A stretch of 64,000 bases of DNA from the NCBI GenBank assembly GCA_023250955.1, contig JAHEZQ010000011.1:1-64000 (forward strand). The letters run 5' to 3'. This document shows positions 1-18,758 of this stretch, one piece after another. Position 1 is the stretch's first letter; the number at the start of each line of letters is the position of its first letter. The notes under the pieces are model-generated. The model was given only the letters and a program-made list of their open reading frames with translations, ran no database searches and was not told the DNA's origin. The translations under genes and the position numbers were made by a program. The DNA is from Melioribacter sp. (lineage in GTDB: Bacteria > Bacteroidota > Ignavibacteria > Ignavibacteriales > Melioribacteraceae).

Positions 1-1035
1 CCATTGATTATTGTAAAATCTAACAACAGCAAAATAGTTTGTCCCTATCCAAATACCTCCATTTTTATCTGCAGCGAGACTATTAACCCAATTTTCCGGC
101 ATACCGGATGATTTGTTAAAGGTTGTAAATTTAATATTATCATATTTTGCTAACCCATAAATCGTACCGATCCAAATGTTTCCATATATATCCTCTTCTA
201 ATGCAGTAACAGCATCTGACGGCAACTCACTAACAAATCTCTGCCAACTTACACCGTTATAAACATATAATCCGTTGGGAGTGCCCACCCACAAACGATC
301 ATTGCTGTCGATTAATATATCGGTTATTATTTTGGTACTAAATATTCCCGAGTTCTCATAAGAAATCCAGTTTTTCCCGTCATATTTTATTAGACTATGA
401 TTAAGGGACGCTATCCATTTATTGTTATACTTATCAATAACGACTTTGCTCAATTCGTCGCTTGGTATTTTTGAGTTAATTGTTCTGTAATCTACACCGC
501 GTGTTGTATCATCTAAAATCCTTTCTATTAAAGCGTATAGTCCTCCTTTAGCCTTCACATTTACACTATCATCTCTGCAACCACTTTTAATAAATTTTAT
601 TTCGTAAAATCCCGGATAAACTTTTTTAATGATCGAGGGAGTAATTTCCCCCGTGGATTGATCATTTACATAAATACTTGCACCTGACGGAATAGTAGAA
701 CAAATAAGGTTCGACCAAAAGCGAGGGTTACTTATCATGTCAATAGAAAAAGATTGAACTTGATTTTTGTTAAGCGTAAATAACATACTGGAGTCAGAAA
801 ACAATTCGTGTTTTAACGAGAGTTTATGTTTTCCTTCAGTAATCCACAATGCCGAATCGGGGGTCATTACACTCCAGTTTTTATTATCAATAAAAATTTT
901 ATAACCACGGGGATTACTGCTGACAAATATTTTTCCATATTCAGGTATCGGAGGATCTATAGGTCCGGTAAATACATCTTTTTCACAAGAGATAAGTCCA
1001 AATATTGATAAAGATATAATTAAAATTCTTTTCAT
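1..1035 (-). CDS. PEGA/seven-bladed-propeller surface lipoprotein (partial, C-terminus cut by window edge)
   Basis: The frame is open from the ATG at 1035 to base 1, giving 345 codons with no stop. The N-terminus is a lipoprotein signal ending in LISC followed by EKDVFTG, which matches the three related genes at 1130-2602, 2709-4166 and 7577-9028. Two PEGA-like beta domains follow (roughly residues 35-95 and 107-175). Then come the first four propeller blades, marked by NNKWIA, DRLWVG, GNIWIG and GGIWIG. By analogy with the complete paralogs about 145 residues and three blades lie outside the window. It is the third propeller gene downstream of the receptor at 5133-7379. It shares WSV-x-TPDS and a Cys pair (CSTIPS, CRDDS) with the 7577-9028 paralog rather than with its tandem neighbours. 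The ligand is unknown. Confidence 0.85.
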   Translation of the reverse strand, partial: MKRILIISLSIFGLISCEKDVFTGPIDPPIPEYGKIFVSSNPRGYKIFIDNKNWSVMTPDSALWITEGKHKLSLKHELFSDSSMLFTLNKNQVQSFSIDMISNPRFWSNLICSTIPSGASIYVNDQSTGEITPSIIKKVYPGFYEIKFIKSGCRDDSVNVKAKGGLYALIERILDDTTRGVDYRTINSKIPSDELSKVVIDKYNNKWIASLNHSLIKYDGKNWISYENSGIFSTKIITDILIDSNDRLWVGTPNGLYVYNGVSWQRFVSELPSDAVTALEEDIYGNIWIGTIYGLAKYDNIKFTTFNKSSGMPENWVNSLAADKNGGIWIGTNYFAVVRFYNNQW

Positions 1036-1129
1036 TTTTTATAATCATAGAATAACTATCTATAGAACTAAATTGAATCGGATTCCATTTAATAGGTGAA
1101 TGACCCAGAAACTAATTTTAGTAAATAAA

Positions 1130-2602
1130 TTAGAACGTTCCTTTTTTAAGTTTTGCTATTCCCCCGCCTTTTGTAGCCAACCAACCATCTCCGTTCAAAT
1201 CAATAGAGAATGATGTACACCACTTGGAAAAATATCCATAGCTATCTGAATCATAAAACTTAAACTGCTGGGTAGTGTTATATTTAACCAAACCACCATT
1301 GAGTGCCATCCAAATATTATTACCAGTATCCAGATAAAATGATTCTACATCCAATGCGAAAAGTAAATTCAATCTTAGCTCTTCCCATTGAGCACCATTA
1401 AATCTAATGAGCGCACTTCTAACTTCTAAAGCCTGATCGTAAATATGGAATGAATATAAATTCCCATTTTTATCAACAATTAAATCTTTAATGATATCCG
1501 AAATATCAAGTATTTGCGATTCATTAAAGAATATAGACATTGCAACTGTTGTAATGTTGATCCATCTATTTCCATGATATCTTAGTATACCGCTTCCGCT
1601 GGTACCAACCCATATATCTCCATTGTTAGAACATGCAACTGATGATAAATTCAAAAATTGTACACCCGTATTTCCTGAGTTAAATACTTGGTACGAACTG
1701 CCATTGTATTTTACAAGAGCATTTATAGTAGCTATCCAGATATTTCCAATAAAATCTTCGTCAAGTGCAATAACATTATTTGACGGAAGGTTATTTGTCA
1801 TATTCATCCAGCTAAATCCATCAAAAGTGAATAGACCTTTAATTGAAGCAACCCATAATTTCCCGTTTCTATCAATAAGTAAATCCTGAATACGCGATCC
1901 TTCAATCACTCCGGCATTCTCATACGAAGTCCAATTCTTTCCGTCAAATTTCATCAAACCATGATCAACGGTTCCGATCCATTTATTATTATATTTATCT
2001 ACAACAACTTTATTGACCTGATTGCTTGAAATTTTGGAATTATTAGTTCTATAACTTATTGTACGGCTTGTATCTTCGAGTATTCTTTGGATCTCTATGT
2101 GTTCTCCGCCCTTAACTATTATATCTGTGCTATCATCTCTACAATCTTTTTTTGATAATTTTATTTCATACTTACCGGGAAAAACATTTTTGATTGTAGC
2201 CGGAGTTGTTACATTATTCACTAGTCGGTCATTAAAATAAATTTTTGCTGATGAAGGAATTGATGATAAGGTTACATTTGCGAAGAATCGCGGATTCTTC
2301 AACATATCTACTGAAATAATTTTTATCACTGATTTATCAACTGTAATTGTTAAAGTAGTATCAAGATAAAAATCATGTCTCAAATTTAATTTGTGTTGAC
2401 CTTCGGTTAGATATAACACAGTATCTGGAGAAACGATACCCGTATTTTTATCATCTATAAAAATTCTATAACCGCCAGGATTACTGCTTATAAAAATTTT
2501 ACTGTACGTTGGTATTGGACTTTCAACGAGTCCTGTAAATACATCTTTTTCGCATGAGACTATACAGATTAGAATTAATAAATATGTTGAGATTTTTTTC
2601 AT
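1130..2602 (-). CDS. PEGA/seven-bladed-propeller surface lipoprotein
   Basis: 490 residues. The lipobox is IVSC with the modified Cys at residue 17, followed by EKD; acidic or lysine-rich residues after the Cys fit outer-membrane or surface lipoprotein sorting in Bacteroidota. Two PEGA-like domains lie at about 35-95 and 107-175. Seven blade motifs of the two-component-regulator propeller type follow: NNKWIG 205, GKLWVA 247, GNIWIA 286, GDIWVG 328, GNLYSF 380, NNIWMA 428, GDGWLA 471. No kinase or transmembrane sensor part is attached, so the propeller is a stand-alone extracytoplasmic domain, probably for binding or scaffolding (inference). It is the middle member of a tandem set of three downstream of a TonB receptor and DUF4249 gene. 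The gap to the next paralog is about 106 bases. Confidence 0.88.
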   Translation of the reverse strand: MKKISTYLLILICIVSCEKDVFTGLVESPIPTYSKIFISSNPGGYRIFIDDKNTGIVSPDTVLYLTEGQHKLNLRHDFYLDTTLTITVDKSVIKIISVDMLKNPRFFANVTLSSIPSSAKIYFNDRLVNNVTTPATIKNVFPGKYEIKLSKKDCRDDSTDIIVKGGEHIEIQRILEDTSRTISYRTNNSKISSNQVNKVVVDKYNNKWIGTVDHGLMKFDGKNWTSYENAGVIEGSRIQDLLIDRNGKLWVASIKGLFTFDGFSWMNMTNNLPSNNVIALDEDFIGNIWIATINALVKYNGSSYQVFNSGNTGVQFLNLSSVACSNNGDIWVGTSGSGILRYHGNRWINITTVAMSIFFNESQILDISDIIKDLIVDKNGNLYSFHIYDQALEVRSALIRFNGAQWEELRLNLLFALDVESFYLDTGNNIWMALNGGLVKYNTTQQFKFYDSDSYGYFSKWCTSFSIDLNGDGWLATKGGGIAKLKKGTF

Positions 2603-2708
2603 ATCGGTATTCGAAAAATTACATCTACAAAATCCGGAGTGTAAATAAATTGTTCTGCTTATATGAATAAAATCAATTGATCAGTAGATTTCAATAGAAC
2701 AAGAGAAA

Positions 2709-4166
2709 TTAAAAACTTGATTTTTTAATTTTTGTAATTCCCCCACCCGAAGTTGTTAACCATCCATCTCCATTTAAATCAATACAAAAAGATGATGATT
2801 GATTAGAAAAGAATCTGTAAGTATCCGAGTCGTAAACTTTCATCGAAGAGGGATCATTATATCTGATTAAACCGCCATTTATTGCCATCCAGATATTATT
2901 TTTATCATCGAGATAAAAAGATGAAACTTCCAATGAGAAAAGCAATGGCAATTGTACAAATGACCAAAAAGTTCCGTTGACTTGTGAAAGTCCTCCGGCT
3001 TTTCCCTCAGTGGGTAGGCTCTCATGAAAGATCAAGACCTTACCATTATTATCAGCGATAAGATCATTTATTTGATTCGACATTCCAGATAACTGATCTT
3101 TCATACCAGTGTTAAATAAAGTCCATCTGCCGGTATTATATCTAATAAATCCATCATTGCTCGTCCCTATCCAAACATCACCATTACTTGAAGCTGAAAT
3201 TGAAGATATAGATTTCAATGGTACATCAGTATTGGCAATTGTAAAAATTTGAAATGAGTTATTATTATATTTGACTAAACCATCAGGTGTACCAATCCAA
3301 ATATTGCCAAACGAATCCTCTTCAAGTGCAGTAGCATTATTAGATGGAAGATTATTTGTTAAGTTCTTCCATGTAATACCGTCGTAATTAAATAATCCTC
3401 TAATAGTTGCAACCCAAACTATTCCCTTTTTATCAACAAGAATATCTTGAATACGAAAACCTTCAATTACACCTGTATTATCATACGAAGTCCAATTATT
3501 TCCGTCAAATTTCATAAGTCCGCGGTCTATCGAACCAATCCATTTATTATTGAATTTATCAACCACGACTTTACTCAACACATTACTAGATATTTTTGAA
3601 TTATTAGTCCTATAACTAACAGTCCGGCTTGTATCTTCAAGTATTCTTTGAATATCAGTAAATTCTCCGCCTTTAATGACAATATTTATACTATCAGCTC
3701 TACATTCTTTTTTAACTAGTTTTACTTCAAACGTACCTGGATAAATATTTCTTATTACAGCCGGAGTTGCAACATTATTAATTAATTGGTCATTCAGATA
3801 TATTTTAGCTGCCGAAGGAATTGATGACAAATTTATTGTTGCAAAGAAGCGGGGATTTTTCAACATATCAATTGAAATAGTCTTTACATCAGATTTACTT
3901 ACAGAAATAGTCAATGTTGTATCTGTATAGAAATCGTGTTTCAAATTCAGTTTGTGTTGACCTTCGGTTAGATATAAAACAGTATCAGGAGAAACAACAC
4001 CCATATTTTTATTATCAATAAAGATTTTATAACCACCGGGATTACTGCTGACAAATATTTTACCATATGTAGGTATAGGACTTTCAACGAGTCCTGTAAA
4101 AACATCTTTTTCGCAGGAAACAAGACTGATGATAATTAAGAAACAGGATAATATTTTTTTCATCAT
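2709..4166 (-). CDS. PEGA/seven-bladed-propeller surface lipoprotein
   Basis: The same frame opens further upstream at 4244, but that start would lie inside the DUF4249 gene and put about 26 residues ahead of a good signal peptide. The ATG pair at 4166/4163, just after the DUF4249 stop at 4171, gives MKKILSCF...SLVSC and is preferred. The architecture matches the 1130-2602 gene: lipobox, EKDVFTG, two PEGA-like domains, then seven blades (NNKWIG, GIVWVA, GNIWIG, GDVWIG, GKVLIF, NNIWMA, GDGWLT) and a C-terminus in KIKKSSF. It shares SPDTVLYLTEGQHKL with the 1130-2602 gene, so these two look like a recent tandem duplication. Ligand unknown. Confidence 0.87.
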   Translation of the reverse strand: MMKKILSCFLIIISLVSCEKDVFTGLVESPIPTYGKIFVSSNPGGYKIFIDNKNMGVVSPDTVLYLTEGQHKLNLKHDFYTDTTLTISVSKSDVKTISIDMLKNPRFFATINLSSIPSAAKIYLNDQLINNVATPAVIRNIYPGTFEVKLVKKECRADSINIVIKGGEFTDIQRILEDTSRTVSYRTNNSKISSNVLSKVVVDKFNNKWIGSIDRGLMKFDGNNWTSYDNTGVIEGFRIQDILVDKKGIVWVATIRGLFNYDGITWKNLTNNLPSNNATALEEDSFGNIWIGTPDGLVKYNNNSFQIFTIANTDVPLKSISSISASSNGDVWIGTSNDGFIRYNTGRWTLFNTGMKDQLSGMSNQINDLIADNNGKVLIFHESLPTEGKAGGLSQVNGTFWSFVQLPLLFSLEVSSFYLDDKNNIWMAINGGLIRYNDPSSMKVYDSDTYRFFSNQSSSFCIDLNGDGWLTTSGGGITKIKKSSF

Positions 4167-4170
4167 AATC

Positions 4171-5136
4171 TTAAATTGGCGGTACAACATCTGCCAAACC
4201 GGGTGTATAGCCAAATGATTTAATGTATGCATGGGTAAAATCAAAGGACCAATAGTTACGTAAAAATACTCCGAAAATTCCGATACCGTTATTAATATTA
4301 GTGTAATCTAATTCATTGAGATTAACCGTATAAGCATCATTTGTCCGCGCTATAGAATTAAAATAAGTACTCATACTTTTATTGAAGGATGCGACTTCGA
4401 GATAAGGACCAAGTATTACATAATTACTTTTGTCCGGATCTCCTTCCGATATCAACTGCATGGTTTTACTAATTGTTTCAACATCGAGAACAAATTTATT
4501 ATTATTACTTGGTTTAGGATATATTGCAAATGACCTTCCATCTTGATTAACATATCTAGCCGGGACATATGCAATTCTTGTTTTTCGTTGCGGATCGTTT
4601 TTCTTATAATAATAAATTGAAACTTGGGTTAAGTAAGCATTATCAATTGTTCCAACATCCCAAATAAATTCAACATATGTTTTTGTTAAAGGTGGAACAA
4701 CTTTATCAACATAGCTGAATTTGATTGGATTCGGAATATTAGATTGAGAAGTAAGTCTCATTCCACTTGGAAGAATTGCTTCTATTTCTAATTTATCGCC
4801 GACTAATGTAAATTTATTTGTATAATAAGCGTTATAAGGAATTTGATATTTGCTGTCATCTTGTCTATTAAAAGTAGTATCTCTAAAAATTACAACAGAA
4901 TCTCCATTCCAAACTCTAATAAGAGCACCTTTTACATTCGGATCAATTGTGTTTGAATAAGGATTATAATTGTCATTGGCGTAAGTCCGGGTAAGGGTTG
5001 CTACTTGAAAGGTTGTATCACCTCTTATAATGCAATTGAGCGCATATTTCTCTTTTAGATTTCCGAACGGCTCAAAACTTTCTTCACATGAGACGAAAAT
5101 GATAAAAATAAATATTATAGAAAGATATTTTTTCAT
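4171..5136 (-). CDS. DUF4249 family lipoprotein, receptor partner
   Basis: 321 residues. The signal peptide ends FVSC-EESFEP, an acidic post-Cys stretch compatible with outer-membrane or surface anchoring. The mature start (KYALNCIIRGDTTFQVATLTRTY) is typical of DUF4249 proteins, whose function is unknown and which are habitually encoded next to TonB-dependent receptors. Its ATG overlaps the receptor stop by 4 bases (ATGA, 5133-5136), so the two are translationally coupled. The most likely role is an accessory lipoprotein working with the receptor, loosely like SusD with SusC, but no SusD fold is visible and this is inference. A homolog follows the other receptor at 9029-9997. Confidence 0.85.
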   Translation of the reverse strand: MKKYLSIIFIFIIFVSCEESFEPFGNLKEKYALNCIIRGDTTFQVATLTRTYANDNYNPYSNTIDPNVKGALIRVWNGDSVVIFRDTTFNRQDDSKYQIPYNAYYTNKFTLVGDKLEIEAILPSGMRLTSQSNIPNPIKFSYVDKVVPPLTKTYVEFIWDVGTIDNAYLTQVSIYYYKKNDPQRKTRIAYVPARYVNQDGRSFAIYPKPSNNNKFVLDVETISKTMQLISEGDPDKSNYVILGPYLEVASFNKSMSTYFNSIARTNDAYTVNLNELDYTNINNGIGIFGVFLRNYWSFDFTHAYIKSFGYTPGLADVVPPI

Positions 5137-7379
5137 AGTTCAATTTTTATAGTAGCAGTTGGAAGAAACGGCAACATATTTACGCGTTCACCGGTATCCC
5201 GTTTGTAATAAAAAATATTTTGCCGATTATAAACATTAATTATGCTGAAGCTTAAATCAATGTTAAACGGATCGAAAATAAACTTTTTTGATACCGTAAA
5301 ATCTAATCTATGATACGTTGGCAATCTTTCAATATTCTGGACACCGAGAATTCCATATGGTCTTCTGGGATCAAAATTCACCCAGCTTGTAAAAATGTTA
5401 TCGAAATAATATTTATCGTAGAAACCTACAATTTGCGTGAACGGTAATCCTGAATTATAAATCCAAACAATTCCTGTATTCCAACCACTACCTAAATTGA
5501 ATTCCAAAGATGCATTAAAACTATGGCGTATATCATACTTCGGATAATATCTTAAACTATTTACAGTTCGGTAGGCATAAGCGAGAGTATAAGAAGTTGA
5601 AAAAGTTACTGGTTCAATATCTAATTTAATCGAAGATTCTATCCCGTATGATTCACCTTCCCCACTTATAAAATCTCTATCAGTGCTGGATATTTTTTCT
5701 TTATTAACGATGGGTAAATTATTTGTCCGTTTGTAATAATATTCAAGACCAAGATTAAGAGAAGTAAATGGTGTGTAATCAAATCCAATTATATAATGAG
5801 TTGCTGTTGTTGGAGGGAGATAATCGGGAATAACTATCCAAGGTTCAAAAATATTTATGACTTCGTTCTCATCGTTTATAGTTGTTAGCTCCTGCTGGAA
5901 TATTCCCGCAGAACCTTTGACCGAAAAATTACTAAATGGAATTAAAGTCAAATTTATTCTCGGTTCTAGTCCTTTCTTTGAGCTGTTTCTCGATAGGGTT
6001 GTTAGATTGACTCTGGTTCCGAAATCAAGTTTGAAAAAATCAAATTGAGCCAATTTATATATTCCATAAAAAATAATATTGGCACCGGATGTATTAAAAG
6101 TTACTGGTGCGCCTAAGGCATTAACAAAATTAAGATCAGTAGCTATTTGCTGTACATGGAATCCTACATTAATTTCACCGCGGTTTTCAAATACATAAGT
6201 AAAATCCATTTTTAGAGCAAGGTCAGATACTTTGTTATCGAGAGGAGTCTTGCCGCTAAATTTTGGAACCGTAGAGCCGTTAAAATTGCTGACTGACAAA
6301 CCAAGTTCAAAAAATAATGGTGCATCGGATGCCTGAAACCATTTAAAACCAAATGCATTTGATTTCCAATTGTAATCTTCAATACTTGGATCTGCATTGT
6401 TCAAATTATCAGAACTGGAAAATCCGTTCACGGAAAACTTAGAGCCGGGTAAAAAATCAGCATCAATATAATTTGCCTTGAAAGATATATCGTAAAAATC
6501 AACCGGAACATTATTTTCATTCAAGAATTTTTTAATTATCTGATTAGAAAAACTTTTCCTGCCGGTAATTATAAAGGAACCTTCACCCATTGGACCCTCA
6601 ACTAAGAATTTACCGCTAAGAAAACTTCCGGAAAGCTTTGAAGAGAGCCGGTTTTTATTTCCGTCTTTCAAAATAATATTCATAACAGAAGAAAGTCTTC
6701 CGCCAAATTGTGCACCAAAACCGCCCTTAAAAAATTCTATACTATTAACAATATCCGGATCAACTACACTAAACAACCCTAATGCATGGAACGGATTATA
6801 AATTGTAATGCCATCAACAAGAACTAAATTCTGATCGCTTGTTCCTCCGCGAACATAATAACGTGCAGACACATCACTTGTTGAAGTTACACCGGGCAGA
6901 TATTTTATTGTTCTAAACACATCAGACTCGACACCTTTAGGAGTTAATTCCAATTGCTTAGCGCTAATTCTATCAATACTAATTTTTGAATCGGTTGCTT
7001 TAATGCGTTCCCCAATACTCTCAATCGTCCTCATTTGAATATTGGCCGGGGCAAGTTTGATATTATAATGGCTTAATTTCCCTTTTGATACACGTATTGT
7101 CATTGTTTTGGTACTATACCCAACATAAGAAACGACTAAAGTAAAATTTTGATTTGCAGGAACTGATGTGATTAAAAAATATCCGCGGGTATCTGTGTTT
7201 GCGCCGATCTTTAATTCTTTTATATATGCGCTGGAAAAAGCTAACGCTTCTGCGGTAGTTGAATCTGTAACTAAACCTCTAAGTATTCCGGTATCTTGAG
7301 CTAACGAATTATTATTGGGGAATAATAAAAAGATTTGCAGCAAGAAGACGAATAAAGATAAATGGTAGGCCTTTCTCAT
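5133..7379 (-). CDS. TonB-dependent outer-membrane receptor with carboxypeptidase-regulatory-like domain
   Basis: 748 residues. Signal peptide ending in SLAQ (about 28). A carboxypeptidase-regulatory-like beta domain covers about 31-112 (LRGLVTDS, NTDTRGYF, VSYVGY). The plug covers about 135-240, with YVRGG at 175-179, LVDG at 187-190 and FGGRLSSV at 225-232. The rest is a beta barrel ending in INVYN...RDTGERVNMLPF and a final strand. It would import a substrate across the outer membrane using TonB/ExbBD energy. The substrate is not predictable here: no siderophore, vitamin or sugar genes adjoin. It leads an operon with a DUF4249 lipoprotein and three propeller lipoproteins. The 197-base gap upstream is the likely promoter region. 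Confidence 0.9.
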   Translation of the reverse strand: MRKAYHLSLFVFLLQIFLLFPNNNSLAQDTGILRGLVTDSTTAEALAFSSAYIKELKIGANTDTRGYFLITSVPANQNFTLVVSYVGYSTKTMTIRVSKGKLSHYNIKLAPANIQMRTIESIGERIKATDSKISIDRISAKQLELTPKGVESDVFRTIKYLPGVTSTSDVSARYYVRGGTSDQNLVLVDGITIYNPFHALGLFSVVDPDIVNSIEFFKGGFGAQFGGRLSSVMNIILKDGNKNRLSSKLSGSFLSGKFLVEGPMGEGSFIITGRKSFSNQIIKKFLNENNVPVDFYDISFKANYIDADFLPGSKFSVNGFSSSDNLNNADPSIEDYNWKSNAFGFKWFQASDAPLFFELGLSVSNFNGSTVPKFSGKTPLDNKVSDLALKMDFTYVFENRGEINVGFHVQQIATDLNFVNALGAPVTFNTSGANIIFYGIYKLAQFDFFKLDFGTRVNLTTLSRNSSKKGLEPRINLTLIPFSNFSVKGSAGIFQQELTTINDENEVINIFEPWIVIPDYLPPTTATHYIIGFDYTPFTSLNLGLEYYYKRTNNLPIVNKEKISSTDRDFISGEGESYGIESSIKLDIEPVTFSTSYTLAYAYRTVNSLRYYPKYDIRHSFNASLEFNLGSGWNTGIVWIYNSGLPFTQIVGFYDKYYFDNIFTSWVNFDPRRPYGILGVQNIERLPTYHRLDFTVSKKFIFDPFNIDLSFSIINVYNRQNIFYYKRDTGERVNMLPFLPTATIKIEL

Positions 7380-7576
7380 TAATTAATAATTTTATTAACG
7401 AATAATTAGATGAAGAATAATTTCGGTTAGTAAGATAAACCTTTATGGGAGAATTTCCAGTCCAAAAAATGTATATATACTTTATTAAAGAAGTAAACCG
7501 GTTACAATATATATTTTTAACATTTTTTAACTACACCGTGTATAATAGCTATTTAACAATGACTATTAAATTATGA

Positions 7577-9028
7577 TCAGAAAAAACCTTTCTTAAGTTT
7601 TACAATACCGCCCCCAAGTGTTGTAAGCCAGCCATCACTTTTAAGATCAATACAAAATGAAGAACATAGTTTTGAGAAAAATCCATTTGTATCTGAATCA
7701 TAAAATACTAATGGTTTAAATTCATTATATCTAAGTAACCCACCACTGTATGTCATCCAAATATTATTTTCATCATCGTTATAAAAGGAATGTATATCCA
7801 CGTAAAATAATAAAGGCAATATTAATTCTTCCCAAGTTTGCCCATTATATTTTATTAATGCGCCTCTATAATGTTCTCCCGAATCCGGCATACAATAGGC
7901 GTAGAGATTATTATTTTTATCCACTATAAGATCTTGGATTTCATTCGAGATGCTTGGATCAAGATTCATTTTTGAAATTGTGTGTTGATAAAATTTCTTA
8001 CCATCATATTGGATAATCCCCCATGTAAATGATCCAATCCATATATCTCCATTTTTAGAAGATGACAAAGACCATAGATTATTTAGAGGAACACCCGCCT
8101 CAGTACTTGTAAATGTATGGAATGAAACATTATCATATTTTATTAAAGCGTTAAGATTTGCAATCCAGATATTTCCGTTAACATCTTCCTCTAATGCTGT
8201 TACATTAGCAGACGGCAGTTTATCAGTATATGATTGCCAACTAATTCCATCAAAGACAAATAAACCTTGAGCACTTCCAACCCAAAGTCTTCCCTTTTTA
8301 TCAACCAGCAAGTCATTGATACGTGACCTGTCTATTATTCCGGTATTTTCATAATTAGTCCAATGCTTTCCATCAAATTTCATAAGTCCATGATCAATAG
8401 AGCCGATCCATTTATTATTGTAATTATCAACGACAACTTTATTTAAAACATTACTCGACATTGGGGAGTTGTTCATGCGATAACTTACTGTTCTACTTGT
8501 GTCTTCAAGAGTTCTTAGTATTTCATAATACTTTCCTCCTTTAATTAAATACGTAGAGCTGTCATCACGACAATTTGCTTTTTGAAATTTGATTTCATAT
8601 TGACCTGGATAAATGTGAGGTATTGTTGCTGGTGTTGTATAATTTGCTATTTGATCATTCAGATAAATCTTTGCAATAGATGGAACGGTTGAGCAATATA
8701 TTTTTGCATAGAAACGTGGATTGCTCATCATATCTATATTAAAATTCTGAACTGTTGACTTCTTTACAACTACAGTCATACTCGAATCTGAAAAAATATT
8801 ATGCTTCAATGTAAGTTTATGATTGCCTTCAGCTAACCATAATACTGAATCTGGTGTAATCACACTCCAATTTTTATCATCTATAAAAATTTTATAACCT
8901 TTTGGATTTGTGCTAACAAAAAATTTCCCAAATTCGGTGATTATGGGTTCATCAACCCCAGTAAAAACCTCTTTCTCACATGAGACGAATCCAATAATTA
9001 AAATCGATATTAATAATATTTTTTTCAT
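7577..9028 (-). CDS. PEGA/seven-bladed-propeller surface lipoprotein
   Basis: 483 residues. Lipobox FVSC then EKEVFTG. Two PEGA-like domains contain a Cys pair (CSTVPS and NCRDDS) that the 1130 and 2709 paralogs lack in part. Seven blades follow (NNKWIG, GRLWVG, GNIWIA, GDIWIG, NNLYAY, NNIWMT, SDGWLT), ending GGGIVKLKKGFF. The ATG follows the DUF4249 stop with no gap (TAA-ATG), so it is almost certainly cotranslated with that gene. This is the single propeller gene of the 12240-to-7577 operon, and defines the minimal unit receptor, DUF4249, propeller. Exact role unknown. Confidence 0.88.
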   Translation of the reverse strand: MKKILLISILIIGFVSCEKEVFTGVDEPIITEFGKFFVSTNPKGYKIFIDDKNWSVITPDSVLWLAEGNHKLTLKHNIFSDSSMTVVVKKSTVQNFNIDMMSNPRFYAKIYCSTVPSIAKIYLNDQIANYTTPATIPHIYPGQYEIKFQKANCRDDSSTYLIKGGKYYEILRTLEDTSRTVSYRMNNSPMSSNVLNKVVVDNYNNKWIGSIDHGLMKFDGKHWTNYENTGIIDRSRINDLLVDKKGRLWVGSAQGLFVFDGISWQSYTDKLPSANVTALEEDVNGNIWIANLNALIKYDNVSFHTFTSTEAGVPLNNLWSLSSSKNGDIWIGSFTWGIIQYDGKKFYQHTISKMNLDPSISNEIQDLIVDKNNNLYAYCMPDSGEHYRGALIKYNGQTWEELILPLLFYVDIHSFYNDDENNIWMTYSGGLLRYNEFKPLVFYDSDTNGFFSKLCSSFCIDLKSDGWLTTLGGGIVKLKKGFF

Positions 9029-9997
9029 TTAATTAGTTCTATAACCCAATGATCGAATCATATTTGTTAATGGCACCTCTTTTTTTATCGTATACATTGT
9101 TCCAAAAATACCTAAACCACCATTTAAATTTGAGAAATCAAATAACGTCAATCGTACAGAAAATTCGTCTTTATAAGTTTGCTGTGATGCAATATAAGTG
9201 GCAAAATTTGCATCAAGAATATTGAGCATGAAAAAAGTATTTAGAATAATATAATTTTGTTTGTTGGGATCTTCGTAAGAGATTTCTTCCAGTGCAGTTC
9301 TTATTGTTAATGTATCATAATCAAGAAATTTTTGAACAGGCATTATTGATGGAAAAACTGAAATATTAACATTTTTAACCATAGAATAATAACGTGGTAT
9401 AACTTTTTGATAATTAACCCAATTTCCATTTTCGTTCTTAACATATTTCACAATAAATTCACCAAGGCAATAGCCATTTATTCCCTCCCAATCAAATGTT
9501 AAACGATCTGGGTAAACGGGTTTAGGATTTTTTTGAATAAAATTATTAATTAAATATTGATCTATAATTATCGGCTTAGTTGTTGCAGTTAATTTTTCCC
9601 CATTAGGTAATATTGCTTCAATTTTAATATTTCCTCTATATAATGGTTGAAAGTTTTTTAAATAGTAAAAATGTAATGGTGTTTTATATCGTGACGTATC
9701 CGATCTTGTTATTGAAGTATCTCTGAACTGATATACTTGCGCTCCATACGGTGAATCGTAAGTTAACATAATCTTCGCCCCTTCTAAAAATGGGTCATTC
9801 ATATTTGTGCTCGGATTATAACCTTCAACACCATAAGAGCGGGTTATTGTTGCAACTTGATATGATGTATCACATCTTACTACACAATTCAATAAGTAAA
9901 CTTCATTAAAATCTGTTTTGGGTTCTACTTGATCATTGCAAGAAAGAATTAATATTACATTAACTATTATGAATAAAAAGAATATTAACTTTCTCAT
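9029..9997 (-). CDS. DUF4249 family lipoprotein, receptor partner
   Basis: 322 residues. The signal peptide ends ILSC-NDQVEP. The mature start (YLLNCVVRCDTSYQVATITRSY) aligns with the same region of the 4171-5136 protein, as do ILPNGEKLTA and the near-terminal LGIFGTMY region. The start codon overlaps the receptor stop by 4 bases (9994-9997), preceded by a GGTGGAA ribosome-binding site inside the receptor gene. Like other DUF4249 proteins it has no known biochemical activity. Position and lipidation argue for an outer-membrane accessory of the adjacent receptor. Divergence between the two DUF4249 copies is higher than between propeller copies, which may reflect different ligands (inference). 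Confidence 0.85.
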   Translation of the reverse strand: MRKLIFFLFIIVNVILILSCNDQVEPKTDFNEVYLLNCVVRCDTSYQVATITRSYGVEGYNPSTNMNDPFLEGAKIMLTYDSPYGAQVYQFRDTSITRSDTSRYKTPLHFYYLKNFQPLYRGNIKIEAILPNGEKLTATTKPIIIDQYLINNFIQKNPKPVYPDRLTFDWEGINGYCLGEFIVKYVKNENGNWVNYQKVIPRYYSMVKNVNISVFPSIMPVQKFLDYDTLTIRTALEEISYEDPNKQNYIILNTFFMLNILDANFATYIASQQTYKDEFSVRLTLFDFSNLNGGLGIFGTMYTIKKEVPLTNMIRSLGYRTN

Positions 9998-12240
9998 AGT
10001 TCCACCTTTAAATTAACCGAAGGGAAAAACGGAAGCATATTTACTCTTTCGCCCGTGTCCCGTCTGAAATAAAATAAATTTTTCCTGTCGTAAACATTTA
10101 GTACACTTAAATCAATTGACATCTTAAAATTATTGATTTGGATTCTCTTCGATAAACTCAGATCGAGCCGATGATAATCCGGAAGTCGTCCTATATTTGT
10201 TGCGGATAACATTGTAAACGGAGAATATGAATTTAGCAAAAACGGATTATCTCCAATTTGAATCGGAGTAAGTTTATCATAATAGCCTGTTATTTGAGTA
10301 AAAGGCAGACCAGACGTATAAACCCACATAGCGCTTGCCGACCAGCCGGAACCAAGATCGGTTTCCAATGTTAGATTAACATTATTCCGCGAATCGAATC
10401 TTGGTGGATAAGTAATTCCTCTAACTACTCTCAACGATTTCATCCATGAGTAAGAAACAGTAAAGTTAAAAGGATGCAGCTGATATTTAGTCTGAAACTC
10501 TAGTCCGTATGCTTCACCTGAACCAGGAATAAGATCCGGGTCGTTTATAAAAAATTTTTTATCGTTCACAATTGCAAGATTGTGCATTATCTTATAATAA
10601 CCCTCAATATCAAATGAAAGATTAGGTGCCGGATTAATCTCTATTCCGGCTATATAATGAATAGCGGTTGGCGGTGGTAAATAGAGAGGAGTAATCACCC
10701 ATGGTTCAAATATTAAAATCGTTTCATTCTCATCTGAGATAGTTACCAAATCTTGCATGAATAATCCCCAAGATCCTTTCAAAGCAATTTCCGGAATTAA
10801 TCTCAGCGTAAAGTTTACTCTTGGTTCAACAATAAACGTAGCACCTCCTCCTCCAGCGAGTCGCGTACCGTGTGCTCTGATTCCAATGTCAGATCCAATA
10901 AATGAATTTCTTAACCACTGATATTTTAAGTATGCACTTAAACTTACACCTTTAAGATCTATTGTTGATTCTTGCCCGATGTTATTTGTTAATGTTTGGT
11001 AAGAATAAACTTCTGTAATTTTTATCCCTCCGGCTAATACATCTTTGCTGTCATAAACATAATTGAAATCAGCGTGCATTGAGTATTCGTTAAACTCGTT
11101 TTTCATATACTTGCTTCCGCTTTCATTCGGTATTCTTTCTCCGCTGAATGAACTCAGTGAAATATCAACTTGATAAAACAACGGCGTATCAGATAGCTGG
11201 AAATAATTAAACTCAAGTGTATTGTTCTTCCACTGGAAATCTTCCAAGAGCGGATTTTCATTCATTACTTTATCTGAACTGAAAAAAGTACTGAGAGAAA
11301 ACTTTGCGTCTTTCATAAAATTATCATCAGCAATATTTATTTTTGCAAATATGTCGTAGAAATCCGACGGAATGGAATTATCGTTCCTAAACTTTTTGAG
11401 AACTACATCTGAATAATTTTTTCTCCCGCCTAGAATAAATGAACCGCCCGGAAAGGGTCCTTCAAGAAAAAGTTTTGCGGTCAATAAACTTAACCCAGCT
11501 TTTCCACTGATTGAATTTTTATTTCCGTTCTTAGTATTGATCTTTAATACGGAGGATAGACGACCGGTATATTCAACCGGAAATCCTCCTTTATAAAATT
11601 CCAATGAGCTTATCATATCAGGGTCAATAGCGCTTAAAATTCCCATTGCGTGAAATGGATTATATATTGGTGTATTATCAAGAAGAATTAGGTTCTCATT
11701 GCTTGCGCTACCGCGAACATAAAAACGCGCTGACACATCACCACCCGTTTGAACACCGGGCATTGTCTGTAAAACACGGAAGATGTCTAATTCAATTCCT
11801 TTGGGTAAATTTTCTAAATCTCGTATTGTAATTCTCTGTAAGCTCAAGTCAGTATCATTTTCTTTTGCAACTCTTTCTCCAGTTGTTTCAATCGTTCTCA
11901 GTTGAATGTTTGTAGGTGCGAGCCGGGCTTTTACGTCGTACACTTTATTCGGTTCGATTCTAACTGTGAGTTGTTGAGATTTGTAACCTACATAAGAAAT
12001 TGTAACTGTTAATTTTGAAGACGGGAGAGAAGCAATAATGAAGTACCCGCGGAAATCAGTATTTGCACCGCGGTTTAACTCTTTGATATAAACATTTGCA
12101 TAAGGTAATGCCTCACCGCTGAGTGAATCTGCAATGAATCCGCGAAGAGTTCCTTTGTCTTGAGCGTTCGAATGAGAAGTAATGTTTACTAACGATATTA
12201 TTAATATAAAAATCGTGATGGTAATTTTAGAACGAGACAT
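9994..12240 (-). CDS. TonB-dependent outer-membrane receptor with carboxypeptidase-regulatory-like domain
   Basis: 748 residues, the same length and plan as the receptor at 5133-7379. Signal peptide to SNAQ (about 27); a carboxypeptidase-regulatory-like domain (LRGFIADS, NTDFRGYF, ISYVGY); a plug with YVRGS, ILLDNTPIYNPFHAMG and YTGRLSSV; and a barrel ending RDTGERVNMLPFF and a last strand. The plug-region motif PFHAMGILSAIDPD matches PFHALGLFSVVDPD of the other receptor, so the two are paralogs of one subfamily. It heads the operon receptor, DUF4249, propeller lipoprotein. A short palindrome (12296-12313) lies about 56 bases upstream of the start and could be an operator, or the acs terminator. 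Confidence 0.9.
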   Translation of the reverse strand: MSRSKITITIFILIISLVNITSHSNAQDKGTLRGFIADSLSGEALPYANVYIKELNRGANTDFRGYFIIASLPSSKLTVTISYVGYKSQQLTVRIEPNKVYDVKARLAPTNIQLRTIETTGERVAKENDTDLSLQRITIRDLENLPKGIELDIFRVLQTMPGVQTGGDVSARFYVRGSASNENLILLDNTPIYNPFHAMGILSAIDPDMISSLEFYKGGFPVEYTGRLSSVLKINTKNGNKNSISGKAGLSLLTAKLFLEGPFPGGSFILGGRKNYSDVVLKKFRNDNSIPSDFYDIFAKINIADDNFMKDAKFSLSTFFSSDKVMNENPLLEDFQWKNNTLEFNYFQLSDTPLFYQVDISLSSFSGERIPNESGSKYMKNEFNEYSMHADFNYVYDSKDVLAGGIKITEVYSYQTLTNNIGQESTIDLKGVSLSAYLKYQWLRNSFIGSDIGIRAHGTRLAGGGGATFIVEPRVNFTLRLIPEIALKGSWGLFMQDLVTISDENETILIFEPWVITPLYLPPPTAIHYIAGIEINPAPNLSFDIEGYYKIMHNLAIVNDKKFFINDPDLIPGSGEAYGLEFQTKYQLHPFNFTVSYSWMKSLRVVRGITYPPRFDSRNNVNLTLETDLGSGWSASAMWVYTSGLPFTQITGYYDKLTPIQIGDNPFLLNSYSPFTMLSATNIGRLPDYHRLDLSLSKRIQINNFKMSIDLSVLNVYDRKNLFYFRRDTGERVNMLPFFPSVNLKVEL

Positions 12241-12295
12241 AAACCCACCCAGCTAATAATCTATTGTAAGCTAACGTTCCAAGTTAAGTAATTCG

Positions 12296-12313
12296 GTGCA
12301 TAAAATTATGCAC
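12296..12313. repeat. Short perfect palindrome between acs and the receptor operon
   Basis: Arms GTGCATAA (12296-12303) and TTATGCAC (12306-12313) are exact complements separated by AA. The site sits downstream of the acs stop (12355) and upstream of the receptor start (12240). There is no U-tract on the minus strand, so a dyad operator for a regulator is at least as plausible as a terminator. It is seen once in the window; function is inference. Confidence 0.35.
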
Positions 12314-12354
12314 AACAAAATACTTGATAGCCGAAGATTATTTAGATAATAAGA

Positions 12355-14247
12355 CTATTCTTCCAGCGTTGAAATATTTCCGGGATCTTGTCCGAGTGCT
12401 CTTGCTTTGAGTACACGTCTCATAATTTTTCCGCTGCGGGTTTTTGGAAGTGAATCCACAAACTCAATGTGTTCGGGTTTTGCAATCGGACCTACTTCAT
12501 GACTAACATGCTGACGAAGTTCCTCAATAAGTTGTGGACTCTTTTCAATTCCGGATTTTAGAATCACATAAGTATAAATCGCATTCCCTTTTAATTCATG
12601 AGGAAGACCAATAGCAGCAGCTTCCGCAACAGAATGATGACTTACCAGTGCACTTTCTATCTCCGCAGTACCTAAACGGTAACCGGAAACTTTTATAACA
12701 TCATCAACTCTGCCGATAATCCAGAAATATCCGTCTTCATCTCTGCGTGCGCTGTCACCGGTTAAATAAATTCCAGGATATTTACTCCAGTATTGACTTA
12801 TATAACGTTCGGGATCTTTGTAAACAGTTCTTATCATTGCCGGCCAAGGAGTTTTGATAACTAAAAATCCTTCTTCATTTGCTTTAACAGATTTTCCGGA
12901 TTCATCAACAATATCCATTTCAATTCCCGGAAATGGTTTTGTACCTGAACCAGGTTTAAGCGGAACACTCGGCATTGGAGTAATCATGAACATTCCGGTT
13001 TCTGTTTGCCACCATGTATCCATAATCGGACATTTTTCTTTTCCTACAACACGATGATACCATTTCCAAGCTTCTGGATTTATCGGTTCACCAACTGAAC
13101 CAAGTAATCGTAAAGAAGAAAGATCGTGCCGATTAACCCACGATTCACCAAAACGCATTAATCCGCGTATGGCAGTTGGTGCTGTGTACAAAATATTTAT
13201 ACCGTACTTTTCAATCATAGCCCACCAACGATTTGGATACGGAAAATTTGGAGCGCCTTCATACAAGAAAGAAGTTGTTCCATTAAGAAGTGGTGCGTAA
13301 ACGATATAACTGTGCCCTGTAATCCATCCTGGATCTGCAGCGCACCAATAGCGGTCTTCTTCATGAATATCAAAAACATATTTGAGAGTTGCATAAGTGC
13401 CTACCATATATCCGCCGTGAGTATGAAGAATTGCTTTCGGTTTTCCTGTTGTCCCGGATGTATATAAAATAAAAAGCGGATCTTCAGAATCTACAATTTC
13501 AAGTGCGCAATTTTGTGTTGCTATAGGAAGATTCATTAATTCGTGATACCACATATCTCTTCCTTGTTCCATATTTATTTCTTGGCCGGTTCTCTTGATA
13601 ACTAAACAATGTTCAACCGTTCCGCAGCGCTGAAGTGCTTCATCAGCAATTTGTTTTAGGTGAACAATTTTTCCTCGTTGGTAAGCGCCGTCCGATACAA
13701 TCAATACTTTGGAATTGCTGTCTTCAATTCTTTCGGCAAGAGATTCAACTGAGAATCCGCCATAAACGACAGAATGAACGGCACCAATTCTTGCACAAGC
13801 AAGCATTGCAATTACAATTTCCGGCGTTCTCCCCATATAAATTGTTACGCGGTCTCCTTTCTGCACACCAAGACTTTTTAGAATATTAGAGAATTTACAA
13901 GTCTCACGGTGTAGTGCAAAATAAGAGTAAGTTTTGCTTTCGCCATTTTCACCTTCCCATATAAGAGCAAGTTTATTTCTACGAAATGTTTTTGTATGAA
14001 CATCCAAACAGTTATAAACAATATTTGTTTTTGCACCTGTGAACCATCTATAGAATGGCTTGTTGGAATCATCAATCACTTTATCCCACTTTTGAAACCA
14101 GTGTAGTTCATTAGCAATTTCACTCCAGAAACCGGAATAATCTTTTTTCGCCCGATTGTCTAAATCATCTCTATCTTTTATATGAGCTTTCTCAATAATT
14201 TTTTCTGATGGAAAGTAAACTTCTCCAGATAATTTTTTGTTAGACAT
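12355..14247 (-). CDS. acs: Acetyl-CoA synthetase (AMP-forming)
   Basis: 630 residues, close to the usual 640-660. It converts acetate, ATP and CoA to acetyl-CoA, AMP and PPi in the cytoplasm. Visible motifs: the ACS N-terminal region (SGFWSEIANELHWFQKW), the adenylation P-loop YTSGTTGKPK at 262-271, WWQTETG in the acyl-adenylate site, and the C-terminal PKTRSGKIMRR with the catalytic, acetylation-regulated lysine at about 607. The start is fixed by a strong GGAGG four bases ahead of the ATG. It appears monocistronic and is divergent from the metal-uptake operon at 14400. It serves acetate scavenging or fermentation-product reassimilation. Confidence 0.96.
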   Translation of the reverse strand: MSNKKLSGEVYFPSEKIIEKAHIKDRDDLDNRAKKDYSGFWSEIANELHWFQKWDKVIDDSNKPFYRWFTGAKTNIVYNCLDVHTKTFRRNKLALIWEGENGESKTYSYFALHRETCKFSNILKSLGVQKGDRVTIYMGRTPEIVIAMLACARIGAVHSVVYGGFSVESLAERIEDSNSKVLIVSDGAYQRGKIVHLKQIADEALQRCGTVEHCLVIKRTGQEINMEQGRDMWYHELMNLPIATQNCALEIVDSEDPLFILYTSGTTGKPKAILHTHGGYMVGTYATLKYVFDIHEEDRYWCAADPGWITGHSYIVYAPLLNGTTSFLYEGAPNFPYPNRWWAMIEKYGINILYTAPTAIRGLMRFGESWVNRHDLSSLRLLGSVGEPINPEAWKWYHRVVGKEKCPIMDTWWQTETGMFMITPMPSVPLKPGSGTKPFPGIEMDIVDESGKSVKANEEGFLVIKTPWPAMIRTVYKDPERYISQYWSKYPGIYLTGDSARRDEDGYFWIIGRVDDVIKVSGYRLGTAEIESALVSHHSVAEAAAIGLPHELKGNAIYTYVILKSGIEKSPQLIEELRQHVSHEVGPIAKPEHIEFVDSLPKTRSGKIMRRVLKARALGQDPGNISTLEE

Positions 14248-14399
14248 ACAGCCTCCAGACTCAAAAGGATTTAGATTTATTTATTTGATACTTTGGGAAC
14301 GAAGTTACGTTTGGATGGTAAGAAAATCAATAAGAAGGCATAATGTATTTTTTATTTGAACTCAATTATATATCTTCTATGTAAGAATAAAAACAATTT
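14248..14399. promoter_or_regulatory. Divergent intergenic region, acs and metal-uptake operon
   Basis: These 152 bases separate two divergent starts, so they must contain both promoters and probably the metal-responsive operator of the uptake operon. The region is strongly AT-rich. I could not identify a Zur-, Fur- or MntR-type palindrome by eye, and no promoter hexamers stand out. Confidence 0.45.
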
Positions 14400-14750
14400 A
14401 TGAAACGTAAAAAAATATATATTAATAGAATAGCTGCCGCTTTCCTCTTCTTCTATTCTTTCTTTTTGGTCTTTGCTGCTTTTCATACACATAAGATCAA
14501 TCTTCAAAATGGAAATGCCTACCATTCAGAAGAATCGAAATCCTCTAACAACCAAGCTGATCCTTTTCTTGATGGGAATTCCAAATGTCGGCTTTATTAT
14601 TTTACAACGAACAAATTTATTGCCACACCTACAATACATTTATCTGTTGATGTACCTGAACAATCTTCCAATCAACAGAAGAATTATACAAACCACTACC
14701 TCACCAAATATTTTTACAATTTTGATTTAAGGGCACCTCCGCTTTCATAA
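14400..14750 (+). CDS. Small membrane-anchored protein, DUF2946-like, first gene of metal-uptake operon
   Basis: 116 residues. A basic start (MKRKKIYINR) is followed by one hydrophobic segment (about 11-28: AAAFLFFYSFFLVFAAFH), then an H-T-H and a polar, Ser/Asn-rich periplasmic tail ending DLRAPP-LS. A short protein with one N-terminal segment and a C-terminal R-[A/G]-P-P recalls DUF2946-type proteins, which are found near metal-handling genes. This is a resemblance, not a proven assignment. It lies 50 bases ahead of the outer-membrane barrel gene, so it is likely cotranscribed. A second frame overlapping it (14473-14730) has no such features and was discarded. Confidence 0.6.
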   Translation: MKRKKIYINRIAAAFLFFYSFFLVFAAFHTHKINLQNGNAYHSEESKSSNNQADPFLDGNSKCRLYYFTTNKFIATPTIHLSVDVPEQSSNQQKNYTNHYLTKYFYNFDLRAPPLS

Positions 14751-14800
14751 TTCAATTCCGTTTTAATTAATATTTTTTATTTAATAGTAATGGAATCATT

Positions 14801-15970
14801 ATGAATAAATTATTATTTGCACTCTTCTTATTGGTTATTGTATCCGGTAGTATAGACGCACAATCGAGTATTAATCCGGATATTAGCTTAATCGGGACAT
14901 TCAACACATTTACCAATTTTATTAAAGGAACTCCGGAATACGGTAAATTAAATTTCGGTGATCCAGAAATGGAATTATTTGTTGACGGATATTTAAATCC
15001 TTTTGCCCGCGCAACAGCAAACATCTCATACGAGAATAATACGTTCGGAGTAGAAGAACTTTACGGAAACATTGTTCGCGGTCTACCTTTTGATATGCAG
15101 ATCAAAGCCGGTAAATTTTTAGTTGGTTTTGGGAAATTAAACACAGTTCACCCTCACGCATGGCCATTTTTAGAGCGACCTCTTTTCCACCAAGTATTTT
15201 TTGGCGAAGGCGGTCTTAATGATGTTGGAGTTAATTTTAGTTTCCTTATACCAACCGGAGACGTTTTTACAAATCTTGATCTTGGGATATTTAAAGGGAA
15301 ATCAATGATTCCGCAAACGGATAGTAATGCAATAGATCATGGTATCAATCCAATCTTTGTAGGAAGACTAAGTACATTTTGGTCTTTGGATGATTATACA
15401 AATCTTGAAGTAGGATTGAGCGGCTCTTATGGTGCTTATTCAAAAGGGAATTTGATTCTTTTCAGTATTATAAAAAATGTAGATAATATAGAAACATTCA
15501 ACTATTTGTACGGTGGTATAGATTTTAAGTTCAAGTATGCGCCAGATTCTTACACTGTTCTTACAATTCAGGGAGAAGGAATATTAAATCATCGTACAGT
15601 TCCGCGAGTAGATTTCTTTGGCGTTGACAACACTACTGCTTCTTCAAAAAAAATATCAAACTCCGGCTTTTTTATTTATGCAGATTATAAATTCCAGAAG
15701 CAATTCAGTTTTGGCGTTAAGTATGATTACACAGCAGGCATATTAGGAGACTTGCCAACATTTTATTCATTGAGTAATGATGATAAAAATTCCACTCAAG
15801 GATTTGAAACTTGGTTTTCATATTACCCAGTTGAAGAGACCTCTGTAGTACGTCTAGGTTTGCAGCATTTAATTTATGATTACGATGATGGGACAAGCCG
15901 TCCTGCAGAAACAACAATTAAATTACAATTTTTATTTTCACTTGGACCGCATAAAGCTCATCCATTTTAG
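14801..15970 (+). CDS. Outer-membrane beta-barrel protein of the zinc/manganese uptake operon
   Basis: 389 residues. Signal peptide ending SIDAQ (about 21), then a long series of alternating amphipathic strands with aromatic girdles (for example LFVDGYLNPFARATANISY, FGVKYDYTAG), ending in LQFLFSLGPHKAHPF. There is no plug or TonB box, so it is a porin-like barrel rather than a TonB receptor. Several His lie in a likely loop (TVHPHAWPFLERPLFHQ), and the C-terminus has two His. It is separated by 14 bases from the binding-protein gene, which suggests it passes the metal across the outer membrane (inference from context). The ATG has GGAAT upstream. Specific family not identified. Confidence 0.7.
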   Translation: MNKLLFALFLLVIVSGSIDAQSSINPDISLIGTFNTFTNFIKGTPEYGKLNFGDPEMELFVDGYLNPFARATANISYENNTFGVEELYGNIVRGLPFDMQIKAGKFLVGFGKLNTVHPHAWPFLERPLFHQVFFGEGGLNDVGVNFSFLIPTGDVFTNLDLGIFKGKSMIPQTDSNAIDHGINPIFVGRLSTFWSLDDYTNLEVGLSGSYGAYSKGNLILFSIIKNVDNIETFNYLYGGIDFKFKYAPDSYTVLTIQGEGILNHRTVPRVDFFGVDNTTASSKKISNSGFFIYADYKFQKQFSFGVKYDYTAGILGDLPTFYSLSNDDKNSTQGFETWFSYYPVEETSVVRLGLQHLIYDYDDGTSRPAETTIKLQFLFSLGPHKAHPF

Positions 15971-15984
15971 TTAAGAGGACAATT

Positions 15985-16866: not shown

Positions 16867-16871
16867 TCTTT

Positions 16872-18505: not shown

Positions 18506-18559
18506 TACATAGCCCGAATTTATAAATAATTTTTCTCAACATAATTCAAGGTTAAGTAT

Positions 18560-18567
18560 TATATTTG
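18560..18567 (+). promoter_or_regulatory. Possible Bacteroidota-type -7 promoter element before tRNA-Ser
   Basis: TATATTTG matches the TAnnTTTG -7 consensus known from Bacteroidetes sigma factors, and lies 31 bases before the tRNA 5' end. No convincing -33 TTTG was found at the expected distance, so this is only suggestive. Confidence 0.3.
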
Positions 18568-18598
18568 CATCGAAAATTTACTGAAATAATTTCAGCAC

Positions 18599-18690
18599 GG
18601 AGAGATGGGTGAGTGGCTGAAACCAACGGTTTGCTAAACCGTCGTAGTGGGAAACTGCTACCGAGAGTTCGAATCTCTCTCTCTCCGCCA
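18599..18690 (+). tRNA. tRNA-Ser (anticodon GCT)
   Basis: The acceptor stem GGAGAGA (18599-18605) pairs with TCTCTCC (18680-18686), followed by discriminator G and an encoded CCA (18688-18690). The anticodon stem ACGGT/ACCGT encloses loop TTGCTAA with anticodon GCT, which reads AGC/AGT serine codons. A long variable arm follows (GTAGTGGGAAACTGCTAC), as expected of a class II tRNA. The T-arm is GAGAG-TTCGAAT-CTCTC. All stems pair without mismatch. Confidence 0.97.
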
Positions 18691-18700
18691 CCTTTATATG

Positions 18701-18730
18701 AGCTCATAATCTTTCCGATTTTGAGCTTTT
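18701..18730 (+). terminator. Hairpin terminator after tRNA-Ser
   Basis: Arms AGCTCATAATC (18701-18711) and GATTTTGAGCT (18717-18727) pair over 11 positions with one mismatch and a 5-base loop, followed by TTTT. It lies between the tRNA and the convergent gene ending at 18759, and may serve both strands because the minus strand also runs out through an A/T-rich flank. Confidence 0.6.
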
Positions 18731-18758
18731 GAGTTCCATATTTCAGCCACCAACTATT

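Follow-up and report, generated by a model that had tools for sequence, protein, structure and literature searches.

Two receptor operons at the start of the contig

We examined the first 64,000 nucleotides of contig JAHEZQ010000011.1 (here C26) from a Melioribacter sp. genome (assembly GCA_023250955.1; order Ignavibacteriales) of 3.26 Mb in 67 contigs. This whole stretch is referred to as the window, and its first position is base 1 of the contig. Two neighbouring minus-strand operons, A and B, lie in its first 12,240 bases and share one gene order: first a TonB-dependent receptor, next a DUF4249-type lipoprotein and last a lipoprotein that joins a seven-bladed propeller to two PEGA domains (hereafter propeller). 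Operon A encodes receptor A (9994-12240, 748 amino acids (aa)), DUF4249-type lipoprotein A (9029-9997, 322 aa), a putative lid, and propeller 1 (7577-9028, 483 aa). Operon B encodes receptor B (5133-7379, also 748 aa), DUF4249 lipoprotein B (4171-5136, 321 aa) and propeller 2 (2709-4166, 485 aa), followed after 106 bp by propeller 3 (1130-2602, 490 aa) and after a further 94 bp by propeller 4, of which the first 345 codons (1-1035) precede the contig edge. Contig C31 carries on after an exact 119-base overlap (C31:3-536), giving a total of 483 codons plus stop, and operon A therefore has one propeller and operon B three.

The receptor overlaps the DUF4249 gene by 4 bases in both operons. The start codon of propeller 1 directly abuts the DUF4249 A stop codon (TAA-ATG, 9029/9028), and the gap between DUF4249 B and propeller 2 is 4 or 7 bases, as there are two candidate ATGs. 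A previous sequence-only reading of this DNA had described the shared gene order, the receptor length and these junctions, and our analysis bears them out. The two additional propellers of operon B were absent from that reading, so it understated the module.

Pfam scans found CarbopepD_reg_2 and Plug domains in both receptors (Plug PF07715, 50.3 bits in each, cut-off 23.9), ahead of a barrel-sized C-terminal region, and no STN domain in either. Each window propeller contained two PEGA and three Reg_prop stretches. In propeller 1, the lipid-attachment cysteine (Cys17) is followed by PEGA domains at ~34-100 and ~107-173 and by the propeller at ~177-482. Lipoprotein B matched DUF4249 (PF14054) at 24.2 bits, below the curated cut-off of 28.5. 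Lipoprotein A had no DUF4249 match by the same scan, and its label comes from its 33-35% identity to B and from matching relatives. In the family alignment of 24 sequences, which holds this genome's own four copies, 20 matched PF14054 (E ≤ 0.01), so that the window copies look like a divergent branch of DUF4249.

The window genome has four receptor/DUF4249 pairs, operons A and B plus one each on contigs C22 and C4. Relative to operon A, the C22 pair is 70% (receptor) and 52% (DUF4249) identical and the C4 pair 43% and 29%. An RlpA-like lipoprotein gene follows the C22 pair and a convergent amylase-like gene follows the C4 pair (product names read from the translations), with no propeller behind either. 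The only full-length propeller relatives in the genome (E ≤ 0.001) were the four of the window, the fourth split over two contigs. Two other proteins of this genome are worth recording. A 112-aa lipoprotein-like protein (L042:1750-2088) is a weak relative of the PEGA-bearing N-terminal part and has no propeller, and a 552-aa propeller-like protein (L041:4021-5679) has a C-terminus resembling, by reading, a type IX sorting domain.

Conservation of the module across genomes

To determine how closely these genes are linked, we analysed 56 genomes of the window's family, defining a chain as propeller genes on the same strand behind DUF4249 with each gap between -60 and 400 bases. Propellers were identified with a 58-sequence profile, with at most 28 candidates scored per genome, so that totals are lower bounds; an earlier single-sequence search at 1e-40 had given 54 propellers, an undercount. 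Eighty DUF4249 genes occurred in 42/56 genomes, 71 of them with a receptor directly upstream, and at least 64 propellers occurred in at least 37 genomes. DUF4249 was present in all 37 of these propeller genomes, though it also occurred without a propeller. A propeller chain stood behind 39/80 DUF4249 genes, in 34 of the 37 propeller genomes, and 53 of the 64 propellers were found in such chains. Chance adjacency was rejected, as only ~0.01 adjacencies were expected.

A second set comprised 78 loci from named genomes, fetched by receptor alignment alone, which shares some contigs with the first locus set. A propeller directly followed 48 of the 75 evaluable pairs and was absent from 27. Those set aside were four with DUF4249 at a contig end, two with the receptor at a contig end and one with a broken receptor (L141, in two pieces, also left out of the junction counts and trees). 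On inspection, the contigs of L158 and L117 both proved to end inside the start of a propeller, raising the count to 50/76. The receptor-DUF4249 overlap was exactly 4 bases in 74/79 junctions, and DUF4249-propeller gaps lay between -14 and 15 bases in 39/48. Thus, the receptor-DUF4249-propeller module is real and conserved, and the propeller does not stand beside the receptor pair only in this window. The sequence-only reading had also made the propeller a constant third partner. This did not hold, since the C22 and C4 pairs, two of the four in the window genome, and about half of the family's pairs lack it. Record titles of these loci named Ignavibacteria groups, Melioribacter/Melioribacteraceae, Stygiobacter electus, unplaced 'Bacteroidetes bacterium' or 'bacterium' and one Lokiarchaeota. 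The last (L161) is a module on a Lokiarchaeota assembly contig and is probably misbinned DNA.

We further investigated the occurrence of both lipoproteins across the phylum. The propeller profile (E ≤ 1e-60) matched at least 18 of 296 genomes among the best five candidates per genome, 17 from the same order, which lists 27 of the 296; the remaining match was partial and lay outside it. A DUF4249 profile made from the family itself matched 28/296 genomes, 21 in the order and seven others in the class, and PF14054 matched 46/118 genomes of the phylum. Thirty PF14054 loci were fetched, 29 from outside the order and one from the window's family. A receptor lay upstream in 20, and a PEGA-propeller in none (0/30) within the 1.5 kb examined on each side. 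The receptor/DUF4249 pair therefore occurs widely, and the propeller seems to have been added within the order.

Predicted structures and surface-export signature

The AlphaFold2 model of the propeller protein, built from the 58-sequence alignment, had a mean predicted local distance difference test (pLDDT) score of 91.8 and a predicted template modelling (pTM) score of 0.83. It consisted of two PEGA-sized sandwiches (~34-173) and seven blades closing into a ring (~177-482; counted from the strand list), and it ended at the last blade. Model and Pfam scan therefore agree with the two PEGA-like domains and seven-bladed propeller of the sequence-only reading, and its description of a propeller without a kinase stands, as no kinase matched in the ten window proteins scanned. 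The best fold match was BT3049 (Z 32.1, root-mean-square deviation 2.4, 284 residues aligned), followed by BT4673 (Z 29.9) and then virginiamycin B lyase, BT4663 and PorZ (Z 28.1). In a sequence-profile search of the PDB, which returned nine matches, BT3049, BT4673 and BT4663 came first (4e-72 to 3e-46) and PorZ reached 3e-18. The model of DUF4249 B (mean pLDDT 90.1, pTM 0.81) had two beta-sandwich regions, with weak, generic matches to Ig/fibronectin-III-like and complement domains (Z at most 8.1). For the receptor profile, the only PDB match at E ≤ 1e-5 was 9gbc_A (5e-13; profile positions 6-255, the N-terminal domain and plug), an entry of XusA with XusB (PMC13142918). The next was the ferric enterobactin receptor 1fep (0.003).

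Acidic residues after the lipidated cysteine were counted in lipoproteins picked by a simple lipobox pattern, with other lipoproteins of the same loci as controls. The mean number at positions +2 to +6 was 2.18 for DUF4249 (n = 79), 1.71 for propellers (n = 55) and 0.66 for the others (n = 29), and at least two were present in 68/79, 37/55 and 7/29, respectively. DUF4249 proteins carried an acidic residue at +2 in 64/85 and at +3 in 71/85, and propellers mostly read C-(E/D)-K-(E/D)-V. The optimum export signal of C. canimorsus is reported to be C-X-K-(D/E)2-X (PMC5080379). The view of the sequence-only reading that these residues fit surface export is in keeping with their enrichment over other lipoproteins, and the propeller motif matches the published optimum only in part. 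Surface export of both lipoproteins is plausible on this signature.

Phylogeny and propeller arrays

The two operons differed in their phylogenetic placement. In the receptor tree (83 rows), receptor A fell in a set of 11, ten of them without a propeller (Shimodaira-Hasegawa-like approximate likelihood-ratio test, SH-aLRT, 100), which includes the C22 receptor; receptor B sat among propeller-linked receptors. In the DUF4249 tree, A fell in a set of 12, of which 11 lacked a propeller (support 98). The propeller tree, from which partial propellers below 430 aa were omitted except for window propeller 4, entered cut, placed the operon A propeller in one clade with the three of operon B and that of L167 (support 100). 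We therefore rejected a duplicated module, as implied by the two copies of the sequence-only reading, because the sets around receptor A and DUF4249 A are otherwise free of propellers. This suggests that operons A and B are not duplicates of each other. Most simply, the trees can be read as a pair without a propeller having settled between acs and pair B and gained a propeller of that locus, a direction of events that we infer rather than observe. Locus L167 contains acs (by reading), one receptor, one DUF4249 and one propeller. Locus L152 keeps acs-like and citF-like genes around its pair (by reading) without a propeller, so an equivalent location may lack one. With L158 and L117 scored as having a propeller, the propeller label requires 8 changes on the receptor tree and 7 on the DUF4249 tree.

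Tandem arrays were found in several loci. Array members were each other's nearest relatives in L124, L126, L128, L136 and L149, and some were not in L119, L129 and L169. The largest array, in L119, had five propeller genes in one operon, one of which (L119:17896-19382) is broken into frames of 240 and 253 aa. In 19/21 within-locus propeller pairs, PEGA1 showed greater similarity than the propeller's C-terminal half, a pattern that would suit a constant stalk and a varied head. The C-terminal half was also more variable across the whole family, so variation there is not special to arrays. A different arrangement, two successive DUF4249 genes per receptor, was observed in L100:12241-14227, L160:12184-14224 and L169:12214-14104, with propellers in L169 only.

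Genomic neighbourhood

The acs gene lay immediately upstream of 12/50 propeller pairs (four without upstream DNA) and 3/26 propeller-less pairs (five without), and citF or aconitase occurred in the locus of 21/50 propeller pairs versus 2/26 propeller-less pairs. As a guide to the substrate, these neighbours (acs, citF, aconitase) pointed to none. Among the 26 propeller-less pairs, carA was upstream in six and rlpA followed in six. In L100, L102, L103, L104, L108 and C22, pairs without propellers sit in another recurring locus, which has carAB-like genes before the pair and an RlpA-like gene after it.

No shared operator emerged from a simple count over 83 upstream stretches of 200 bases, in which the commonest 8-mers were all AT-rich. 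The interval between acs and receptor A (window 12241-12354) holds an inverted repeat, GTGCATA and TATGCAC with a 4-base gap, starting 73 bases before the start codon, which the same count did not find before the other receptors. Divergent from acs, the window (14400-18505) encodes a 116-aa small protein without a Pfam match and ZnuA; assigned by reading are, in addition, a probable outer-membrane protein of 389 aa and the remaining components of a metal ABC transporter. A similar small-protein/ZnuA/metal-transporter set adjoins the module in L119, L149 and L167.

Proposed function and alternatives

From the observed gene order and its conservation, the lipid-attachment cysteines, the tree positions and the predicted folds, we infer a lipoprotein-assisted TonB-dependent uptake system, with DUF4249 as its standing lid and the PEGA-propeller as an accessory surface capture head, a reading we hold with moderate confidence. 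Also in its favour are the close linkage and tight junctions, the presence of DUF4249 in all 37 propeller genomes, the acidic signature after the cysteine, the precedents of XusAB, BtuBG and BtuH together with the 9gbc_A match, and the lack of an STN match in both receptors. TonB would drive the receptor to import a small ligand through the outer membrane, and the DUF4249 lipoprotein, whose gene accompanies almost every receptor of this kind, would act as a lid over the barrel. Since the propeller occurs with only about half of these receptors, it is placed as the accessory head. It would be lipid-anchored, its two PEGA domains holding it off the membrane, and its seven blades would bind the ligand, or the ligand's carrier, and pass it through physical contact to the receptor and lid. 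Propeller genes can be multiplied, absent or gained by another receptor/lid pair, as operon A is read here. A bolder form of this proposal, in which one receptor and lid are served by exchangeable and expandable propeller heads on PEGA stalks, is rather doubtful; if true, substrate range could be altered by duplicating or acquiring heads while the receptor remains unchanged. In operon A, nature may already have carried out such an exchange.

Several observations weigh against the uptake reading. About half of all receptor/DUF4249 pairs do without a propeller, 11/64 propellers are not chained behind DUF4249 (some may be contig ends), and none was seen in 5/42 DUF4249 genomes. These five include the two other genomes of the genus to which the window belongs; in one of the two, G036, the contig of the B-type pair, apparently L158 by matching coordinates, ends ~180 bases past DUF4249 inside a propeller start. 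Propeller arrays fit a 1:1:1 complex poorly, the propellers match the published C. canimorsus export signal only in part (V at +5), and change counts on a tree cannot separate gain from loss. The nearest solved relatives of the propeller are sensor propellers of hybrid two-component systems, and BtuG and XusB were absent from the PDB profile matches and the top fold rows, where absence is no proof. Unrelated WD40 propellers also reach Z 27-28, almost equal scores, so the fold by itself tells little about function.

Alternatively, the propeller itself could close the receptor or bind its ligand, as it does in BtuBG and XusAB, with DUF4249 as a scaffold or assembly partner. Seven-bladed propeller lipoproteins cap the receptor in both of these solved systems, and the XusA entry 9gbc is the best PDB match of the receptor profile. 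However, DUF4249 is the standing partner here, around half of the pairs having no propeller, and the 30 PF14054 loci (20 with an upstream receptor) contained none within 1.5 kb, making this assignment of roles unlikely. A ligand sensor that descends from a hybrid two-component system and has lost its kinase, reporting to the receptor or a regulator rather than feeding uptake, would account for the likeness to BT3049, BT4673 and BT4663 (fold Z 32 to 29; profile E 4e-72 to 3e-46) and for the longer propeller-profile proteins near the pair in L146:1049-4807 (1252 aa) and L150 (886 aa, directly before the receptor). Against such a sensor, which we consider quite unlikely, stand its nature as a lipoprotein rather than a membrane-spanning protein, the lack of a shared upstream operator by simple word and repeat count and the absence of kinase, response-regulator and STN matches from the ten window proteins, the neighbours in other loci not having been searched.

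A role as surface adhesin or decoy, merely sharing the operon and diversified under phage or competitor attack, is very unlikely for the propeller. A hitchhiker is not expected to track one receptor class this closely, and the variability of the C-terminal half, although it exceeds that of PEGA1 in 19 of the 21 within-locus pairs, is a feature of the whole family and not array-specific; the local expansion of tandem arrays in several lineages and the broken copy in L119 would be in keeping with such a role. Least probable of all is a propeller that faces the periplasm and helps to pass the ligand on after transport. Its export signal is only partly canonical and none is known to have been established for Ignavibacteria, yet acidic residues follow the cysteine more often than they do in the loci's other lipoproteins. 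Our preferred reading thus remains an uptake receptor with a DUF4249 lid and a propeller head, and the module makes the role of DUF4249, two-lipoprotein receptors and head exchange between receptors testable.

Comparison with known systems

The occurrence of DUF4249 beside TonB receptors, noted in the sequence-only reading, is prior art. In B. thetaiotaomicron, a TonB-dependent transporter and a DUF4249 protein, BT2172/BT2173, form a conserved operon like the window pair; the two are reported to act together, and disrupting either has similar consequences (PMC11003636). The available text of that report describes no propeller partner, whereas the window module has one. We found no report of a PEGA-propeller partner in the open-licence literature, and this partner is the new part of the module.

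The receptors do not belong to SusCD, as TIGR04056 (SusC/RagA) scored 61.8 bits for A against a cut-off of 368, B was not listed, and no SusD Pfam match was found in the module proteins. Membership in PorZ (NF052228), a type IX secretion system protein that has a Reg_prop propeller in common with ours and a weak profile match, was likewise rejected (37-47 bits, cut-off 260). The hybrid two-component sensors BT3049, BT4663 and BT4673 are closest in sequence and fold. Unlike them, the window protein has a single propeller, a lipid-attachment cysteine, two PEGA domains and no kinase match; Reg_prop matched in 22/22 propeller family members, and no kinase or response-regulator domain matched in the window propellers or in these 22.

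The Bacteroides xenosiderophore uptake system XusABC resembles the window in its receptor with an N-terminal carboxypeptidase-like domain and in its seven-bladed propeller lipoprotein, XusB, which is a lid on XusA (PMC13142918). XusB is a DUF4374 protein, and the window propellers are built of PEGA and Reg_prop. DUF4374 had no match in the window propellers (E ≤ 1) or in 22 family members (E ≤ 0.01), and the accessible account of XusABC describes no DUF4249. In Bacteroides B12 uptake, the seven-bladed propeller lipoprotein BtuG is likewise the lid of its receptor, BtuB (PMC10404256). A seven-bladed propeller lipoprotein also accompanies the receptor in the window, with DUF4249 in between, but in BtuBG the propeller is the lid and here DUF4249 is the standing partner. 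Riboswitch control was rejected, since an Rfam scan of window positions 1-20000 found only a tRNA and, unlike BtuBG, no cobalamin riboswitch. Some B12 loci encode a further B12-binding lipoprotein, BtuH, which was not enriched with either BtuB or BtuG in the reported pulldowns (PMC8941943). BtuB-BtuG-BtuH thus offers a receptor, a lipoprotein lid and an occasional further surface lipoprotein, as proposed for the window, and by analogy the propeller's role would be closest to that of BtuH, despite a different fold. Whilst the solved propeller-lid systems considered here come from gut Bacteroides, the three-part form described here belongs to a different order of the phylum, whose record titles point mainly to groundwater, fen, sediment and comparable sources.

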